Source of the DNA: Bacillus tequilensis KCTC 13622
Lineage (GTDB): Bacteria; Bacillota; Bacilli; Bacillales; Bacillaceae
Reading direction: 5' to 3'
NCBI RefSeq assembly: GCF_000507145.1
Contig: NZ_AYTO01000007.1
Coordinates: forward strand, 1-64,000
Length of the DNA: 64,000 nt
The notes beneath the pieces are model-generated. The model was not told the DNA's origin and did no database searches. It saw only the letters and a program-made list of their open reading frames with translations. Both the position numbers and the translations under genes were made by a program. Below are positions 5,716 through 27,248 of this stretch, piece by piece. How positions within the stretch are numbered: the stretch's first letter is position 1; every line of letters begins with the position of its first letter.

Positions 5716-6606
5716 TTAAGGCATGTGAGCTGCCTCGCCCGTTTTTTGTTTACGAGGCGCAGCGGAAATAACCAGAAGTCCCAGCATCATAAGGCCAATG
5801 CCAAGCCACGAGAAAAATGACAGCATTTCTCCTATGAAAAACACGCCCAGCAACGAGGCCGTCAGCGGTTCAGCTAAGGACAGCGTGACCGCCGCCGAGG
5901 CCGGGATCCCTGTAAGTCCTTTCGCAAACAGAAAGTATGCGGCGCATGTTGCAATTAACCCGATGTAAAGGCTCGTTCCCAGCCCTCTAGGGGTCAGCAC
6001 CCACGAGATATCTGACTGCCATAAAAGCGGCGTCAGCAGAATGGCACTGATCATAAAGACAACAGCAGTAGTCGCTCGCGGAGGCTGGGTTTTCATTATC
6101 GCTTTACTGATGAGCGTATAGCCCGCAAAAGAAGCACCCGCTCCAAGCGCCATGAGAACACCAGAAACATCAATCCGAACATTTGAACCATCGGAAAACA
6201 GAAGCCAGCAACCAGATAGCGCCAATAAAGTGGCGATCCACCAGGCGTTTCGCGGGCGTTTTTTCAATACGGCCCACTCAAGGCTCCCGGCAATGATAGG
6301 CGCGCTGCCGATCGCAATTACAGTCCCCACCGCGATTCCGGTTTCTTTAACGGCTGTGAAAAACAGCGGCTGGTAACACGCCATACACACTGCTGCCGAT
6401 AATACGAGCGGCCATGACCCATTTTTCACGTGAAGCTCCCGGCTGATCCAAACTGTAAGCAGCATGGCGCTTCCCCCTATTAATAATCTGAACGCCCCGA
6501 ATGCCAGCGGTGTGGAGCTTTCTGGAGCCATCGTCTGGACGGTTCCCGTGGTTCCCCAGAAAATAGCCGCGATCAGCACAAGCAGGCTGTAAACATTCCC
6601 TTTCAT
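5716..6606 (-). CDS. ywfM: EamA/DMT-family transporter YwfM
   Basis: A 296-residue integral membrane protein with ten hydrophobic segments made of two repeated EamA halves, as in drug/metabolite transporters. Family features include WGTTGTVQTMAP near the start and a repeat of the small-residue-rich PLTASLLGVFFIGE motif near the C-terminus. The ATG at 6606 is chosen for the strong GGGGAGAGG ribosome site; an in-frame start at 6780 would overlap lipL. The substrate is unknown. It stands between rsfA (convergent) and lipL (same strand, 170 bp upstream). Confidence 0.85.
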   Translation of the reverse strand: MKGNVYSLLVLIAAIFWGTTGTVQTMAPESSTPLAFGAFRLLIGGSAMLLTVWISRELHVKNGSWPLVLSAAVCMACYQPLFFTAVKETGIAVGTVIAIGSAPIIAGSLEWAVLKKRPRNAWWIATLLALSGCWLLFSDGSNVRIDVSGVLMALGAGASFAGYTLISKAIMKTQPPRATTAVVFMISAILLTPLLWQSDISWVLTPRGLGTSLYIGLIATCAAYFLFAKGLTGIPASAAVTLSLAEPLTASLLGVFFIGEMLSFFSWLGIGLMMLGLLVISAAPRKQKTGEAAHMP

Positions 6607-6776: not shown

Positions 6777-7622
6777 TCACCCAAATATCTTTGCATTCCG
6801 CTCAGCCATCCGGACGAGGTTTTTCTCAAATTCCATTTCCTCATCAGTGGACAGTCCTGCTGAATAAAGATGGGTGCTTAACGCTTTTAATTCCGTCAAT
6901 AAAGCGAACATTAAGTCTTGTACGGAGATGTCTGTTTGCAGAAGCTCACTTAAGGACGCCATCGTTTCCGGACGTATCTCCGGATAGACGCCTTTTTTAT
7001 CGTTTCGTTTGTCCTTCAACGCCGCTTGGTAGAATCGTCTGATTAAGTCGGCCCTTTCACTGCCGCTTTTATCCGCGCAAAGATAAATCTGCACAGCGAC
7101 TCCGCCGCGAACGCGTCTTTGAGAGATACCCGCGAATTTTTTGCCGTCTATACTGAGGTCATAGCTGCCGGGACAATAAGATCCTTCAATTTCATAGGCT
7201 TCGATCTTTGCGTTGTACGGCTTGAGCATCCTTTTCATCAGCTCAGCCATCGCTTCATATCCTTTGTCTATGTCGATGCCCTTCTTTTCGTCCTCGAATA
7301 TGAGAGAGAGATTTAACACGCCCTCATCCAACACGACGGCAAGACCGCCAGAATTGCGTACGATCACACGGTATCCTTCATTTTCCAGAAAGGATATGCC
7401 ATCCTGCAAAAATGGGAGACGGGTATCCTGTATGCCAAGGACAATTGTGTCGTGGTGCACCCATGAGCGCGCTGTCGCCGGTGACACGCCTTTTCCGACA
7501 GACATGCACAGCGTATCATCCATTGCGAAGGATTGCTTCGCATCAAATAAAGGGCCGAGACTGGATTGGTCAATGACTCTCCATGTCGGCTGCATCAGTA
7601 AATCAATCGGTTGGTTTGCCAT
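6777..7622 (-). CDS. lipL: Octanoyl-[GcvH]:protein N-octanoyltransferase LipL
   Basis: A 281-residue BPL/LplA-superfamily enzyme that moves octanoyl groups from the glycine cleavage H protein to E2 subunits of 2-oxoacid dehydrogenases, a step in lipoate assembly. The motif [18 protein letters not shown] (residues 89-106) and [13 protein letters not shown] are visible. The catalytic cysteine is Cys150 in GSYCPGSYD, matching the position known for LipL. Length is as expected for the family. It is a single gene; the next gene upstream (cysL) has an unrelated role. Confidence 0.93.
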
Positions 7623-19926: not shown

Positions 19927-20193
19927 GACATTATCTCCTTAAATCACTGTTGGGATTGGCCAGAGCGTCCTCTGCAGAAAAAGTGTTTTTTTGTAATTCG
20001 CGAATGATCCTTCTTTTTCCTTAAAAATTAATCTATCATCATTTTCCATGGAAGTAAATGCTTTTTTAGGAATATTCACACTTGTAATTATTTCGATAGT
20101 CTTATTCTGTTTTTACAAGGTTCTAAAACATGTGTTTTCTCTTTTTTTCAGCCGCATCCGCCTGTCGTTTTGTATCTATTTTCCTATTTTCAC
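19927..20193. other. Intergenic region upstream of bslB
   Basis: AT-rich, with no convincing reading frame. It should hold the bslB promoter, but I could not pick a confident -35/-10 pair. Confidence 0.4.
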
Positions 20194-20226
20194 AAAAAAG
20201 TCGAAGACGCTTTCGCTCTTCGATTG
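20194..20226 (-). terminator. Terminator of the sps operon
   Basis: On the minus strand TCGAAGA and TCTTCGA arms, extended by GCG/CGC pairs, are followed by CTTTTTTG, 15 bp past the spsL stop. Confidence 0.9.
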
Positions 20227-20240
20227 ATCATGATCTATCT

Positions 20241-20696
20241 TTATCTACATTCGGTGTTCCAGTTAAAGCCGATCGTCTCATCATCCCATGGAATCCTTTT
20301 TTCATCAGGCTGATCAGGGTTATACGACATGGTGGTAAAGTAGATAATCGTCAGCGGCGTTTCTCCCAGCACCCTGTATCCGTGAGCGACCCCTTTTGGA
20401 ATCAATAACAGCATTGGGTTGTCTTCACCCATATAATAGACGTCAGTTTCTCCTTTTGTCTTTGAACCCTCTCGAAGATCGTAAAGGACAACCTGAGCGT
20501 GGCCGGTCGGAAAGAACCATAGGTCATCCTGCTTCTCATGATAGTGAAATGCTTTTATGACACCAGGATAGCTTTTCGACCAAGACGCCTGCCCGAAATG
20601 CTCGAGAAGGTTCTCATCATCCCGAACCAGCTCAGCAAAAAAGCCCCTGTCGTCATTATGCTTTGTCAGTTTTTTCACCTTGACTCCTTCAATCAC
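20241..20696 (-). CDS. spsL: dTDP-sugar epimerase-like protein SpsL (RmlC family)
   Basis: A 151-residue cupin-fold protein of the RmlC/RfbC family, which makes dTDP-rhamnose precursors for the spore surface polysaccharide. The KAFHYHEKQDDLWFFPTG segment (about 50-67) contains the expected histidine. The start is GTG at 20696, 8-9 bp after AGGAGAGGAG, overlapping the spsK stop by 8 bp; an upstream GTG at 20702 is too close to the ribosome site. It is the last gene of the sps operon and ends before a strong terminator. Confidence 0.9.
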   Translation of the reverse strand: MIEGVKVKKLTKHNDDRGFFAELVRDDENLLEHFGQASWSKSYPGVIKAFHYHEKQDDLWFFPTGHAQVVLYDLREGSKTKGETDVYYMGEDNPMLLLIPKGVAHGYRVLGETPLTIIYFTTMSYNPDQPDEKRIPWDDETIGFNWNTECR

Positions 20697-21540
20697 GCGC
20701 ACTGCTCCTCTCCTGCAAATACTCCCGTAACGCTTCCCGCCAATGGCGGGGGCGGATGCCGGCTTCTTCAATGGCCCGATGGCTCAGTACAGAGTAAGCC
20801 GGACGGGGCGTTTTGTTCCCGTATTCTCCTGTCGTGACAGGCAAAATGACTGTCGCCAGCCCGCTTTCTTCCATAATCGCCTTCGCGAATTCATACCAGC
20901 TGCATATGCCTGAATTGCTGACATGATAGATGCCCGGCGGATGGCTGAACAGCTTGATGACCGCTTCTGCTAAATCCTTCGTATATGTCGGCGAACCTAT
21001 TTGATCGTTTACAACCCTCAGCTCTTGTTTCGTTTCGGCAAGTTTCAGCATGGTATGGACGAAATTGCTGCCGCCATGTCCGTACACCCACGATGTTCTG
21101 ATGATCGTACTGTCTTTCGTTGCTAATCGAATCAATTCTTCTCCGAGCTTTTTGCTTTTGCCGTAGATGGTGTTCGGTTCGAGGGGATCATCTTCCTTGT
21201 ATGGCTGCGTTCCTTTTCCGTCAAATACATAGTCCGTGCTGATATGAATATATTGAGCGCCGATGCCGGCTGCCTCAAGGGCGGTATAATAAGCGCCGAT
21301 TCCGTTAATCAAGTACGCTTTATCAAGTTCTGTCTCGCATTTGTCAACCGACGTAAATGCGGCCGTATTGACCACGATATCCGGCCGATAATATCCAAAC
21401 GAATGCCGTACTGAGCGCTGATCAGAAATGTCCATCATCTTCTTTGTTAAGGCAATGACCTCATATCCGGCTTGCTTCAGCTGGCGGCACAGTTCCAGGC
21501 CAAGCTGGCCTCCCGCACCAGTCACCAATACCTTCGTCAA
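20689..21540 (-). CDS. spsK: dTDP-4-dehydrorhamnose reductase-like SpsK (RmlD family)
   Basis: A 283-residue NAD(P)-dependent extended SDR. VTGAGGQLGLELC, the catalytic YxxxK in TIYGKSKKLGEE, and STDYVFDGKG are present. It completes dTDP-L-rhamnose synthesis with SpsI, SpsJ and SpsL. The start is TTG at 21540, 5 bp after AAGGTGA; an in-frame start at 21606 lies inside spsJ. The gap to spsJ is 13 bp. Confidence 0.92.
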   Translation of the reverse strand: MTKVLVTGAGGQLGLELCRQLKQAGYEVIALTKKMMDISDQRSVRHSFGYYRPDIVVNTAAFTSVDKCETELDKAYLINGIGAYYTALEAAGIGAQYIHISTDYVFDGKGTQPYKEDDPLEPNTIYGKSKKLGEELIRLATKDSTIIRTSWVYGHGGSNFVHTMLKLAETKQELRVVNDQIGSPTYTKDLAEAVIKLFSHPPGIYHVSNSGICSWYEFAKAIMEESGLATVILPVTTGEYGNKTPRPAYSVLSHRAIEEAGIRPRHWREALREYLQERSSARD

Positions 21541-21553
21541 TCGAATCACCTTC

Positions 21554-22501
21554 TCATCGGTCATTGTTTGTATACCAGCGAATCGTACGCGCGATGCCGT
21601 CTTCAAACGGCACTTCCTGCCGCCAGCCCAGTTCGTTTTTCAGCTTTGACGCGTTGATCGCATAGCGCCGATCATGCCCTTTTCGGTCTTCCACATGGGC
21701 GAACAATTCCTCACAGCCCAGATGCTTCATGATGATGCTCGCCAGCTCTTTATTCGTGCGTTCATTTCCGCCGCCGATGTTATACACCTCGCCGTCTGTT
21801 CCTTTTTCTAAAATCAGCTTGATGGCGCGGCAATGATCCTCCGCAAACAGCCAATCTCGAATCTGCAGCCCATCGCCATACAGCGGAACCGGAAGCCCTT
21901 GCTTTGCATGGCGGATAATCGTCGGAATCATTTTTTCGCTGTGCTGATAGGGGCCGTAATTGTTGCTGCATCTTGTAATGATGGCCGGAAGCTTATGGGT
22001 TTTCACATAAGACAACACGAGAAAATCAGAGCTTGCTTTGCTGGCTGAGTATGGGTTGTTAGGGGAAAGCGGCGTCGTTTCAGTAAACGCGGGATCATCC
22101 AGTTCTAAATCCCCGTAGACCTCATCTGTTGAAATATGAATCAGCTTTTTTGCCTTCCCTTGTAAAACCGCTTCCGCCAATCGGTATGTCCCCATCACAT
22201 TCGTAGTGATAAACGGCTCCGCTTGGGAAATGCTTCTGTCCACATGCGATTCTGCCGCGAAATGAATCACACCGTCATAGGTCTGATCAAACGCGCGGTC
22301 GATATCCTCCTGAACGCTGATGTCCCCTTTTACAAAACGAAATCGGCTGTTTTCCTTTAATATGTCGATTTCCTCCGGGTGGCTGGCGTACGTCAGTTTA
22401 TCTAAAACGGTAATGCGCGCATCCGTTTCCTTCAGCATGAGCTTTGTAAACGTGAGCCCGATGAAGCCGGCCCCGCCCGTAATTAAATATGATTTTGCCA
22501 T
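21554..22501 (-). CDS. spsJ: dTDP-glucose 4,6-dehydratase SpsJ (RmlB family)
   Basis: A 315-residue extended [12 protein letters not shown] at the N-terminus, [10 protein letters not shown] (active-site Asp-Glu) and YSASKAS (catalytic Tyr/Lys) are as in RmlB dehydratases. The ATG at 22501 overlaps the spsI stop by one base (TGATG); the GTG just before it at 22504 is an alternative. It acts after SpsI in dTDP-rhamnose synthesis. Confidence 0.94.
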
Positions 22502-23241
22502 CACTTTTCGTCCTGTCCTTTCTGTAAAGCCTTGTGTACAAGCCGGGAGGCGAGATGAAGCGATTCATGAGTTCCGGCATCAACCCACCAGCCTGATAAC
22601 ACATCATACGTAAGCTGGCTGTTTTCGATGTATAGATTATTCACATCGGTGATTTCCAGTTCGCCGCGCTTTGACGGTGATATTTGTTCAATATATGAAA
22701 ATACCTCCGCATCATACATATAAATGCCGGTTACACAAAGATTGGTCGGCGGATGCGCGGGCTTTTCGATAATGGAACGGATCCGCTTGTTTTTCTCATC
22801 AATCTCAGCAATCCCGAAGCGTTCCGGATCATCAACTTCTTTGAGCAGCACCTTTGCTCCTTTTCCCTGCTGTTCAAAGCGCTCCGTATAAGGCTTTAAT
22901 GAATCTTCGAATATATTATCACCTAATAATAAAAGGAAAGGCTCTTTTTTCGTAAAGCGTTTTGCATAAGACAGTCCATCCGAAATGCCCGATGCGGCCG
23001 GCTGTACCTGATAAGTGATGGTGACGCCAAGCTCTTCCCCGTTCCCAAGCAGCTTATAAAATTGCGGCATATGCTCTTTTTGGCTGATGAGTAAAATGTC
23101 TTTTATTCCGGCTTCCTCAAGCTTCATAATCGACCAGTAAATCATCGGATACGGGCCTACAGGAAGCAAATGCTTGTTGACGGCTTTCGTTAAGGGCATA
23201 AGGCGTGAGCCGTTTCCTCCGGCTAAAATAACACCTTTCAC
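22501..23241 (-). CDS. spsI: Glucose-1-phosphate thymidylyltransferase SpsI (RmlA family)
   Basis: A 246-residue nucleotidyltransferase activating glucose-1-phosphate to dTDP-glucose. The [25 protein letters not shown] signature is present (split at [12 protein letters not shown]), as are [13 protein letters not shown] and [19 protein letters not shown]. It is the first intact gene after the broken spsG, so it now relies on readthrough from spsAB or on a promoter in the scar. ATG at 23241 follows AAGGAAGTG-like sequence. Confidence 0.94.
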
Positions 23242-23700
23242 ATTAACACTTCCTTACTTGCATTTTTATACCTTTCGATCATACATATCTTGAAAGAATA
23301 GCTGTTACCCGATTGTTCCCTTTGCCATCCAAGAGCGGCCTTCCCCCTTGTGCAAAGAAAGGCGCAGAGAATAGCTGCTGATGAGCCGTGACATTTGATG
23401 GATAATCGTTTCACCCGATACAGGCTCTCCCAGACCAAGACCAAGGACGACGTCTTATTCAGCGAATAGTTTGGCTGTTGCGGTTTGACGTTCAACCTGG
23501 GAAAGAACAAGGCAAGGCACGCCGATACAAATAGCTTCATCCAGAGAGAGGCCCCCGGCGGCAATAGCTGCACCTGCTTGTTTCATCACACCCGCCATAT
23601 CATTTGTCTGCCTGATCACCGTGTACTGCGGCTTTTTTTCGGATCCGCCTTCGGACCTTTGGAGAGCCATCCCGCTTTAAGCGAGTTCTCCCTTGCCGAT
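23242..23700 (-). pseudogene. spsG: Degraded spsG (PseG-like sugar hydrolase/transferase) remnant
   Basis: On the minus strand 23670-23458 reads an open stretch with DMAGVMKQAG, AAIAAGGLSLDEAICIG and VPCLVLSQVERQTATA, the pattern of PseG/SpsG-type nucleotide-sugar proteins (donor-binding C-terminal half). A TAA stop follows at 23457-23455, yet the same frame continues after it with DVVLGLGLGEPVSGETII and LISSYSLRLSLHKG. A one-base loss near 23350 then shifts the frame, and RPLLDGKGNNRV continues to a TGA at 23281-23279. The N-terminal half is missing. Nonsense, frameshift and truncation together make it a pseudogene. Confidence 0.85.
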
Positions 23701-23766
23701 TAACGGAAATGAATTAGGAAGAAAATGATCTCTCTTTTGCACCATTTCCTTTGCGCTCCCATCATT
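23677..23766 (-). pseudogene. Short open remnant between spsB and spsG
   Basis: Directly after the spsB TAA, and in the same frame, 29 codons stay open (including AKEMVQKRDHFLPNSF) before a TAA at 23679-23677. It has no start with a ribosome site. In 168, spsC-spsF fill this place; this could be the 3' end of one of those genes or original spsB-distal sequence. I cannot identify the parent gene. Confidence 0.4.
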
Positions 23767-25191
23767 TTATTCAGTATCTTCCCGCCTGTAATCAACCCCT
23801 GTTTTGGCTTTCAGTTCCGCTAATAAAGCGTTTGTTGATTCTGTCACCGGATAATTAGCTGCTGTGAATGCCAGACGCGACTCTTCTGCTTTTTCCTGCA
23901 CAGCGGGACTTTGAAGAACCTCAATCAAGGTGCGCGCCAGTTCATCCGGCTGGTCAAACATAAAATCGCCTAGAGATTCATAATACGGATAAGAGCGGTT
24001 TCCGGTCGATTTCCCGATCAGCACAGGCTTTTGAAACAGCATGGCTTCAAGTCCGACTGTTGAGGTTTGCGTCACTGCCGCGTCAACATATGGCAGCACA
24101 TCATAAAGCCCCGGCTCCTTTTTGAGGACTCGGCATGCTTTATGTTTTTTCGCCGCCTCGTGATACAGATCCAGCTTGTTTTTTCCGATTTCCCACGGGT
24201 GGGGTTTGATGATGATTTGCAGCTGATTCTGATCAGAAAGCCCTTCCAGCACACCGGAATAAAAATCTTCTGAAAAGGGCTGAGTGGCAATGAGCACAAT
24301 TTTTTTAGACGGATGAAAAGCAAGTTTGCGATAGAAGACGGACATATCCATAGGGGTTCTGTTAAAAATCTCATCGAAGCGGGGATGTCCCGTGACGAGA
24401 ATCTGCTCGGGTTTACAGCCTTTTCGTATGAACCACTCTGCTTCATACGCGCCAAAAACAGCTTGATAGGCTGTAAAAACAGGAATGAAGGCTTCATCTC
24501 CCATCAATGCGCCATGCTGAAGACAAATGCTGACGGCACCTCTCCTACGGCACATGAGAGCGAGCACTCTGCTGTAAACATCTTCGGCAGTTCCGACGAC
24601 AACGGCCGAAATCTTCTCTTTCTCAAACAGCGTATCAACCGTATCAATGGCTTCCATAAATAAAGGAATATCTTTATAAAGCCGGTCGCGAAACGCTTGA
24701 TCACCGAATGCCGGGTGATCGTTGAAAGAGGCAAGAATCGAACAGGCTGTTTCGAGATACGGCTTCGGGTCGCCCTTCTGGCATGATTCCGCAATCTCAC
24801 GCTTACTGATCACTGGCAGATCACAATAATGCGGCAAACTCCATCTGGCCAAAACAGATGTTTTTTCAGGATCAAACTGATAGTAATTTTCGTTTGTAAA
24901 ACGCAGGTAATCAAAGTGCAAAATGACTTTCCCTTCAACAGGTTCGTCGTTTATTTTGACTATATTTTGTATGTTTTCTTCAAAAAACGGCTGAATCTGC
25001 CCTTCATCGATATGCTGATCCGCCGGTCCAAATAACTCTGGTTCTTCTTCCATTATCACTCGCAGCTCAGGGCTGATATATTGATAAAAATTGCTGATAA
25101 GCCCAAGCGGAATCCCCTTATAGCGAAGTTTGTCAAAAAGCTCTACATACTTCCGGTACAGCACCCAATAATTGCTTAAATAGGCCGACAA
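23767..25191 (-). CDS. spsB: Spore-coat polysaccharide transferase-like SpsB
   Basis: A 474-residue protein with a C-terminal CDP-glycerol glycerophosphotransferase-like/GT-B half: [23 protein letters not shown] and [21 protein letters not shown] are the expected nucleotide-binding blocks. The N-terminal half is family-specific. The start is TTG at 25191, preceded by GGGGTGA and 4 bp past the spsA stop; an earlier TTG at 25209 would overlap spsA. It is retained although the neighbouring spsC-F genes are gone. Confidence 0.88.
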
Positions 25192-25195
25192 GCTC

Positions 25196-25969
<774 letters not shown>

Positions 25970-26008
25970 CTACACCTCCTTCTTGGCACTTCACACCTGA
26001 AACTATCG

Positions 26009-26018
26009 TTATCTTATG
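26009..26018 (-). promoter_or_regulatory. Candidate sigma-K -10 element of the sps operon
   Basis: On the minus strand CATAAGATAA matches the sigma-K -10 pattern CATANNNTA. An AC (the sigma-K -35 core) lies about 14 bp upstream, slightly short of the usual spacing. sps genes are known to be late mother-cell genes. Confidence 0.5.
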
Positions 26019-26134
26019 TTGCTTACGCGCCAGTTGCGCCAGGGATACAAACCAATATGCGAAAAGTTTGTGTATATCTTTAAAAAACAGCGGCTGTCCT
26101 GATCAAAATTTGATCCGTCCGCTATCCTTTTTGC

Positions 26135-26163
26135 GCATATTCCAAGCATCAGCCTCATAATGT
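26135..26163 (+). promoter_or_regulatory. Candidate sigma-E promoter of gerQ
   Basis: GCATATT (26135-26141), a 14-bp spacer and CATAATGT (26156-26163) agree well with sigma-E elements (KMATATT / CATACAMT). It lies 122 bp before the gerQ start. The intergenic region is thus a divergent mother-cell promoter pair. Confidence 0.65.
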
Positions 26164-26285
26164 GAAAGAGATAAAACTCGCACCAGCGACTAAGATCGTT
26201 TTCCATCGGGGGTGAGTTATCGCGGAGCGTTCACCTATACATCCTGAACATGTTTTGAATGGTTTTCATCAAAAGGAGGAACGAT

Positions 26286-26831
26286 ATGAAACCGAAAAAA
26301 AATCAATATCAGCAAATGCAGGCATTTGATAATATGCAGGGGTTTCAGCCTCAGTTTGGCTCCAATCCTTACCCGCAGCAAGGCCAAGGCGGACAAATGC
26401 AGATGATGGGGATGCAGCCAATGATGCCAACAATGCAGCAGGGGCAGCAGCAGCAAGGACAGCAGGGTTTCGGATTCCCGAGCCAGCAGCAAGGCGGCGG
26501 TTTTCAAATTCCATCGGGGCCTACACCGTCAGCGCCGGGCCAAAGCGTTCCCGGCATGCTGCCTGTTGAAGAATCTTATATCGAAAACATTTTGCGTTTA
26601 AATCGTGGAAAAACAGCTACCATTTACATGACGTTTGAAAACAGCAAGGAATGGCCCTCGAAAATCTTTCGCGGTGTCATCGAGGCCGCGGGCCGGGATC
26701 ACATTATTATCAGCGATCCGAAATCAGGAACACGCTACCTGCTCCTGACAATCTACCTCGATTACATTACGTTTGATGAGGAAATTGCCTATACGTATCC
26801 ATATTCCATGTCTTCCTATTCGCCAAGATAA
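26286..26831 (+). CDS. gerQ: Spore coat protein GerQ
   Basis: A 181-residue inner-coat protein needed to place the cortex-lytic enzyme CwlJ and cross-linked by transglutaminase Tgl in B. subtilis. The first 90 residues are rich in Gln, Met, Gly and Pro, with short repeats such as QGQGGQMQMMG and QQQGQQG, and hold the lysines near the N-terminus. The C-terminal half is an ordered domain (SYIENILRLNRGKTATIYMTF). ATG at 26286 follows AAAGGAGGAA. It diverges from spsA, and a strong terminator is shared with ywdK. Confidence 0.95.
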   Translation: MKPKKNQYQQMQAFDNMQGFQPQFGSNPYPQQGQGGQMQMMGMQPMMPTMQQGQQQQGQQGFGFPSQQQGGGFQIPSGPTPSAPGQSVPGMLPVEESYIENILRLNRGKTATIYMTFENSKEWPSKIFRGVIEAAGRDHIIISDPKSGTRYLLLTIYLDYITFDEEIAYTYPYSMSSYSPR

Positions 26832-26833
26832 AG

Positions 26834-26874
26834 AAAAAGCCAATCCCTCTTATGATGAGGGATTGGCTTTTTTT
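26834..26874. terminator. Bidirectional terminator between gerQ and ywdK
   Basis: AAAAAGCCAATCCCTC and GAGGGATTGGCTTTTT form a long stem between the converging genes. Confidence 0.93.
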
Positions 26875-26876
26875 GT

Positions 26877-27248
26877 TTATAGATATTTGACGGCTGCGAC
26901 AACGATCATAATCCAAGAAATAATAAACGCCACGCCGCCGAGCGGAGTAATAGCCCCAAGAATGGAGACTTGCGTCACACTGAGTATATATAAGCTTCCG
27001 GAAAACAGCACAATTCCCGCAAACATCAGCCAGCCGGCTGTCGTGACACTGCCGGTGCCGGATAATTTATCGGCCAGAAATGCGACTACGAAAAGCCCCA
27101 GGGCGTGATACATATGATACTGCACGCCTGTGTGCCAAACTTGAAGATATTTATCAGGGATTTTCCCTTCTAATCCGTGAGCGCCAAAAGCGCCGAGGCC
27201 CACAGCAAGGAGGGCGTTTATGGCTCCTAATATGATAAAAACTTTCAT
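26877..27248 (-). CDS. ywdK: DUF423 small membrane protein YwdK
   Basis: A 123-residue protein with four hydrophobic segments. [19 protein letters not shown] and [10 protein letters not shown] are hallmarks of the DUF423 family. Its function is unknown. ATG at 27248; no operon partner is certain, though ywdJ lies 61 bp upstream on the same strand. Confidence 0.85.

Follow-up and report, generated by a model that had tools for sequence, protein, structure and literature searches.

Legionaminic acid (Leg) has been reported as the first nonulosonic acid on bacterial spores, where it is required for assembly of the crust, and in Bacillus subtilis its synthesis requires SpsM, SpsC, SpsD, SpsG, SpsE and SpsF; the parts of the paper that deal with Leg describe its transferase as unknown and do not discuss species without this sugar (Dubois et al. 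2020, PMC7439481). A seven-enzyme route to pseudaminic acid (Pse) that uses Pen and Pal instead of PseB is described for B. thuringiensis in the same paper. As Abe et al. (2014, PMC4191935) describe, SP-beta switches Leg production through spsM, and insertions of this type split the gene in B. amyloliquefaciens as well as in B. subtilis. The loss of Leg genes in a B. tequilensis is already published, the genome report of strain EA-CB0015 stating that they are missing; the Leg section of that report gives no anatomy of the deletion and the word 'pseudaminic' is absent from its main text (PMC10083409). In the open-licence literature, no title or abstract describing an exchange of Leg for Pse was found.

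The DNA considered here, a stretch of 64,000 nucleotides from B. tequilensis KCTC 13622 (the window), includes the same sps operon as B. subtilis, in which spsA, spsB and spsI to spsL are kept, and remnants of spsC and spsG, and elsewhere in the genome of spsM, are recognisable. It differs from the B. subtilis pathway in that neither Leg locus is functional and the genome has a Pse cluster instead. This cluster resembles the B. thuringiensis route in its seven genes and in having a Pen-type and a Pal-type enzyme; however, it lies beside spoIIQ and cls, behind a sigma-K-like promoter, and its proposed target is the spore. The phage insertion of the SP-beta system is reversible, whereas spsM of the window genome is permanently broken and no prophage was seen at the remnant. 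Comparison of the genomes leads us to propose that Pse has probably replaced Leg, and has done so repeatedly, as the nonulosonic acid of the spore crust.

Anatomy of the sps operon and of the second Leg locus

The genes and remnants of the operon are listed from its 5' end.

25196..25966, minus strand: spsA, glycosyltransferase, open, 256 aa
23767..25209, minus strand: spsB, TagB-like transferase, open, 480 aa
23242..23766, minus strand: scar between spsB and spsI, consisting of an spsC piece and an spsG piece
23648..23745, minus strand: spsC remnant (5' end), with start codon at 23745, 22 codons, stop at 23679-23677
23648..23654, minus strand: deletion junction CCGAAGG; in B. spizizenii, strain 168 and G019 this 7-mer stands as a direct repeat on both sides of the ~4.4 kb missing here
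23242..23654, minus strand: 3' remnant of spsG, in-frame TAA at 23457-23455, frameshift at ~23349-23339, neutral codon-position pattern
22501..23241, minus strand: spsI, sugar-nucleotide transferase of the rhamnose branch, open, 246 aa
21554..22504, minus strand: spsJ, rhamnose branch, open, 316 aa
20689..21606, minus strand: spsK, rhamnose branch, open, ORF of 305 aa, real start probably further inside
20241..20771, minus strand: spsL, rhamnose branch, open, ORF of 176 aa

Five intact operons (those of B. spizizenii, G005, strain 168, G019 and B. halotolerans) were used for comparison, and alignment to them upholds the collapse described in the initial annotation, with spsB followed by a short remnant and then by spsI, spsC to spsF absent and spsG lacking its N-terminal part. 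The distance from the last matched codon of spsB to spsI is 528 bp in the window vs 4945–4962 bp in the intact operons. Both lesions that had been reported in spsG, the in-frame TAA and the one-base frameshift, were seen, and a second small indel lies downstream of the frameshift; the reading frames of spsA, spsB and the rhamnose genes spsI to spsL are all open, as had been claimed. The remnant had been assigned to spsG throughout, which is correct for the 3' part; the first ~100 bp are instead the 5' end of spsC. This piece has a 17-nt internal loss, and ~25 bp beyond its stop are still recognisable as spsC, up to the junction.

In the operons of B. spizizenii, strain 168 and G019 the junction sequence CCGAAGG occurs exactly twice between spsB and spsI, the copies lying 4402–4403 bp apart at matching places in spsC and spsG; the other two intact operons, of G005 and B. 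halotolerans, have the spsC copy only. Apparently, ~4.4 kb was deleted between these short direct repeats, fusing the start of spsC to the end of spsG. Chance or an assembly error was judged unlikely and rejected, given the junction repeat and the loss of the same genes, with other ends, in five further species. The alignment with relatives that the initial annotation had proposed hence confirmed that the collapse is real, and found deletion ends in the window that differ from those of the five other collapsed species. Positions 20000-27000 of the window gave no match to plasmids.

The inactivation of spsG had been thought recent. Substitutions specific to the window, counted in the remnant at sites where four Leg relatives agree, number 17/121, 17/123 and 10/88 at codon positions 1, 2 and 3, the corresponding counts for the intact controls spsA, spsB, spsI and spsJ being 23/1232, 13/1243 and 57/967. 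The remnant has diverged at ~2x the rate of 4-fold sites in the same control genes (20/360) and in four core genes (37/535). Because the substitutions are spread evenly over the codon positions and accumulate at about twice the silent-site rate, the remnant is free of coding constraint, and both features speak against a recent event. Judged by these counts, either the loss is old or a dead allele was imported from a lineage where it was already old.

The first gene of the Leg branch, spsM, is not linked to the operon and lies between phy and msrB. In the window genome it is a pseudogene with several indels (L163:4877-5748, equivalent to G000:C34:598876-599747), and its codon-position counts, taken at sites where three relatives agree, are even (49/312, 36/318 and 30/258). 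Lineage-specific divergence is alike in the two dead genes, 44/332 in the spsG remnant and 115/888 in the spsM remnant. Neither a relative of SpsD nor an sps-type SpsE was found elsewhere in the window genome. The loss of the legionaminic branch is thus borne out and is wider than had been claimed, with the unlinked spsM also dead. The phy gene beside it is reduced to fragments (L163 about 5873-6174) and is whole or nearly whole in most relatives examined. The gene names ywnF, ywnD, ywnH, spoIIQ, cls, mta, cge, phy and msr were assigned by gene order and sequence and are presumptive.

A pseudaminic acid cluster in the same genome

Outside the window, a search of the genome with the NeuB family found one strong match, at G000:C9; a further match was to a DAHP-synthase-like gene. 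Seven co-directional genes at G000:C9:45378-52150 (L033:7379-14151) encode, in order, a Pen-like dehydratase, Pal, PseC, a cytidylyltransferase-type protein, PseG, PseH and PseI. PseC, PseG, PseH and PseI all pass the NCBIfam equivalog cut-offs (505.6 vs 423.5, 317.3 vs 153.55, 145.2 vs 93.1 and 508.5 vs 340.25 bits). The PseB model remains below its cut-off (325 vs 407.75 bits); the first gene is closest to the solved structure 6bwc (E 3.5e-142), which is of the Pen type, and the second to the solved Pal, 6bwl (E 1.4e-153). The fourth gene, of cytidylyltransferase type, scores 37.8 bits with the PseF model (cut-off 205.7). In the six species that have the cluster (listed in the next section) none of the seven genes includes an internal stop, and dN/dS is 0.03–0.38 (0.07–0.16 for the first gene). 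From the enzymes, a complete Pse gene set is predicted, and it appears to be under purifying selection. The initial annotation had expected spores with a simpler glycan, which does not follow when a complete Pse cluster is present elsewhere in the same genome. It had also raised the possibility of an intact spsC to spsG set elsewhere, and what is present is a counterpart in kind, since it too is a full nonulosonic acid pathway, yet a different one, for Pse and not for Leg.

The cluster is flanked by ywnF and by a small gene next to cls, and has a GC content of 39.8 % vs 43–45 % in the flanks. The first ORF as called (374 aa from 7259) is overlong, with a GTG start at 7379; L033:7259-7378 is conserved, yet not in frame among species, as for a leader or promoter. 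At the same site, four Leg-type genomes (G005, G011, G063 and G019) have a gene of ~600 aa in which a NeuB-type synthase is joined to a cytidylyltransferase domain (L152:3824-5623, L153:3846-5693, L154:8185-9984 and L155:3936-5912). A 3' scrap of this fusion gene appears, by eye, to be present in strain 168. The fusion gene may serve to make, or to activate, another nonulosonic acid.

The ~100 bp ahead of the first pse gene show strong conservation across the six species, with shifting frames, and the sequence further upstream is variable. The patterns used to search for sigma-K, sigma-E and GerE sites are presumed consensus patterns. A sigma-K-like site, AC-N16-CATAnnnT, is found ~80 nt ahead of the first pse gene in 6/6 genomes; these sites are homologous and count as one conserved site. 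Sigma-K-like sites also precede spsA in the window (AC-N14-CATAnnnT, 69 nt before the start codon) and in strain 168, spsM (4/4 examined) and the fusion gene (2/2 examined), and the background in the window is 0.15 matches per kb of strand. B. atrophaeus and B. mojavensis each have one extra match to the sigma-K pattern higher up, and four of the six Pse genomes have a GerE-like box, which is absent from the window genome and N13C7. By the pattern used, no sigma-E-like site was found before spsG in five intact and six collapsed operons. A sigma-K promoter has been mapped just upstream of spsA and a sigma-E site before spsG has been called likely, in a paper that also gives the element lengths and spacing of the promoters (PMC517825). 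Going by the upstream site, the pse cluster is predicted to be switched on late in sporulation, in the mother cell.

Distribution, repeated loss and transfer

Sixty genomes of the genus were requested and 44 returned, and a PseI query (E<=1e-10) found matches in 33 of them. The Pse cluster, recognised by a PseI identity of at least 90 %, is present in six (the window genome, N13C7, B. inaquosorum, G009, B. mojavensis and B. atrophaeus), a gene of the spsE type (35–38 %) in 27, neither in 11 and both in none. Four of the 27 (G005, G011, G063 and G019) include an additional weak match to the fusion gene. As 11/44 have neither, members of the genus can do without a nonulosonic acid. The cluster is at one common site in all six Pse genomes, and spsC, spsE, spsF and spsG have been lost from each of them, with breakpoints that are partly different. 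No Pse remnants were found at the ywnF-cls locus in 11 genomes without the cluster.

A single deletion common to all was rejected. In N13C7, B. inaquosorum and G009 the junction runs from spsE to spsG, at about 2189 and 4079 on the B. spizizenii gap (for N13C7, at 2170 and 4082), whereas the window, B. mojavensis and B. atrophaeus have other ends. As the former three also cluster in the spsD tree (support 0.988), their deleted allele may itself have been exchanged. A whole spsM was found in 0/6 Pse genomes, five having remnants and the B. atrophaeus locus nothing recognisable; the N13C7 remnant has a near-functional pattern by codon position (13/331, 7/336 and 23/270). Among the Leg genomes of the subtilis/amyloliquefaciens group, spsM was intact and syntenic in the four examined at the locus. 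It is a single frame in G063 (342 aa) and G012, and is in two pieces in G004, G010, G002 and G017, of which we take G004 to be strain 168 and G017 to be DSM 7; this agrees with the published SP-beta-type insertions (PMC4191935). G029 likewise has spsM in two pieces. The loss of spsM (loci L145 and L163-L167) removes the SP-beta attachment gene, and the spore switch based on SP-beta may be gone from Pse-type species.

A core tree of gyrB, cls, spoIIQ, rocG and ywdJ, and further trees of gyrB alone and of spsA/B/I/J, were built for 16 taxa using the best tblastn match per gene (identity of at least 45 % or at least 50 %, depending on the run); rocG was found in 10/16 taxa and G029 was left out of the trees. 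The Pse/Leg state changes five times on the core tree and six times on each of the others, and shuffled labels give ~5.1 changes. On these trees the trait therefore looks randomly scattered, while its loci change in step. Two fully supported sister pairs on the core tree, B. mojavensis (Pse) with B. halotolerans (Leg) and G009 (Pse) with G019 (Leg), are close relatives that differ in the trait. The nearest Leg neighbour of the window is G005 on the core tree (0.839) and SKDU12 on the sps tree (0.906), and because these conflict the window was not used as a firm sister pair; the gyrB tree places it by SKDU12 without support (0.077).

Between B. mojavensis and B. atrophaeus, dS is 0.13–0.23 in all seven pse genes vs 0.50–1.97 in seven other genes, which indicates that the Pse cluster has been transferred between Bacillus species. 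Outside the genus, the closest PseI among 397 genomes sampled from the order is 79 % identical. Searches for Pse on plasmids gave 47 records, the best at 74 % in Peribacillus, and on phages no match.

Explanations and candidate functions

In the history that we favour, an ancestor that made CMP-legionaminic acid via SpsM-C-D-G-E-F would have acquired the seven-gene CMP-Pse cluster from another Bacillus species at ywnF-cls, behind a sigma-K-like promoter. Pse would have taken over the role of Leg in the crust, and spsM and spsC to spsG would then have been free to decay, here by a ~4.4-kb deletion between 7-bp repeats. The remaining glycan genes (spsA, spsB, the rhamnose genes and cgeB) would have been kept, as they would be independent of the kind of nonulosonic acid, and the sps scar would be one of three footprints of the replacement. 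This account supposes that Pse is made in sporulation, is attached to the crust and is accepted by an existing transferase, and that acquisition came before loss. More broadly, and with slightly more confidence than doubt, we regard the identity of the crust nonulosonic acid as an exchangeable module in the B. subtilis group, a horizontally transferred Pse cluster having replaced the Leg pathway several times (about five state changes on the tree), with both Leg loci collapsing and the other crust glycan genes kept. On this reading, the crust would require an acidic nine-carbon sugar, though of no one particular kind, and the transferase would have to accept either.

It is rather unlikely that the acidic crust sugar is simply gone, leaving a simpler, rhamnose-type glycan and a Pse cluster that is unrelated to spores or idle on them. 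The Leg genes are indeed missing from both loci, and the 11 genus genomes with neither gene set fit such a loss, but the six collapsed genomes are exactly the six that have the Pse cluster among the 44, and that cluster is under purifying selection with a conserved sigma-K-like site upstream. Also unlikely is a role of Pse in a vegetative structure, either a cell-surface polysaccharide or flagellin, from which Pse is known in other bacteria, the exclusion of Leg then reflecting an enzyme or precursor conflict (UDP-GlcNAc, shared intermediates). Several bacteria do use Pse as a flagellin sugar, and Pen with Pal can also feed a Leg intermediate, making cross-talk possible (PMC7439481). Against this, the pse promoter looks to be of the sporulation type, and as the Leg genes are expressed late in sporulation a conflict would need the same stage. 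In addition, the Maf-type domain PF01973 was found in 0/17 genomes, in a search for which the positive controls were archaeal only. Flagellin therefore seems a less likely target than the spore. A very unlikely order of events is one in which an SP-beta-type insertion, or its faulty excision, killed spsM and made the Leg route useless, spsC to spsG decayed and Pse was selected later. Consistent with this order, spsM is the SP-beta insertion gene (PMC4191935) and is split in the five genomes named above, but the spsM remnants examined hold no prophage. Moreover, in N13C7 an spsM of near-functional pattern is combined with an spsE-to-spsG junction common to two other species, so spsM looks like the later loss there.

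Several observations count against the replacement of Leg by Pse. The six sigma-K-like sites amount to one conserved site and the GerE-like box is missing from two of the genomes, the PseB and PseF models stay below their cut-offs, and 11/44 genomes have neither gene set. Another is that 5/6 Pse genomes retain spsD, which encodes the Leg acetyltransferase, as a full frame (289 aa; 288 in B. atrophaeus), which a clean swap does not predict; the window genome alone among the six has lost it. The dN/dS of spsD is 0.09–0.24 in the Pse genomes vs 0.10–0.20 among the Leg genomes; it is highest (0.22–0.24) in the three closest Pse genomes, where some relaxation is thus possible. At these loci (L037, L039, L041, L042 and L047) spsD stands between spsB and spsI with its neighbours gone, in genomes that have PseH. 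Its retention without its pathway hints at an undescribed substrate; the best NCBIfam models are of the dTDP-amino sugar type, with scores far below cut-off, and our guess would be that SpsD acts on another substrate, such as a dTDP-amino sugar.

A further one is that no transferase adaptation was seen in the proteins tested: in 14 proteins, including SpsA, SpsB and CgeA, CgeB, CgeD and CgeE, no residues tracking the Pse/Leg switch were found when five taxa were compared with five (four with four for cgeE), B. atrophaeus and SKDU12 being left out. The cgeB gene is present in 17/17 genomes. If the natural, repeated exchange of Leg for Pse is true, the role in the crust is not tied to the exact sugar, and the transferase is narrowed to a gene common to both types. 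The exchange would further account for differences in the chemistry of spore surfaces, and would bear on adhesion and on anything that recognises these sugars.

The Leg-type SKDU12 (L055 / L150) has most of spsF deleted, and its spsB and spsI include one stop each in the aligned part. It also carries the fusion gene, the second domain of which could stand in for SpsF.
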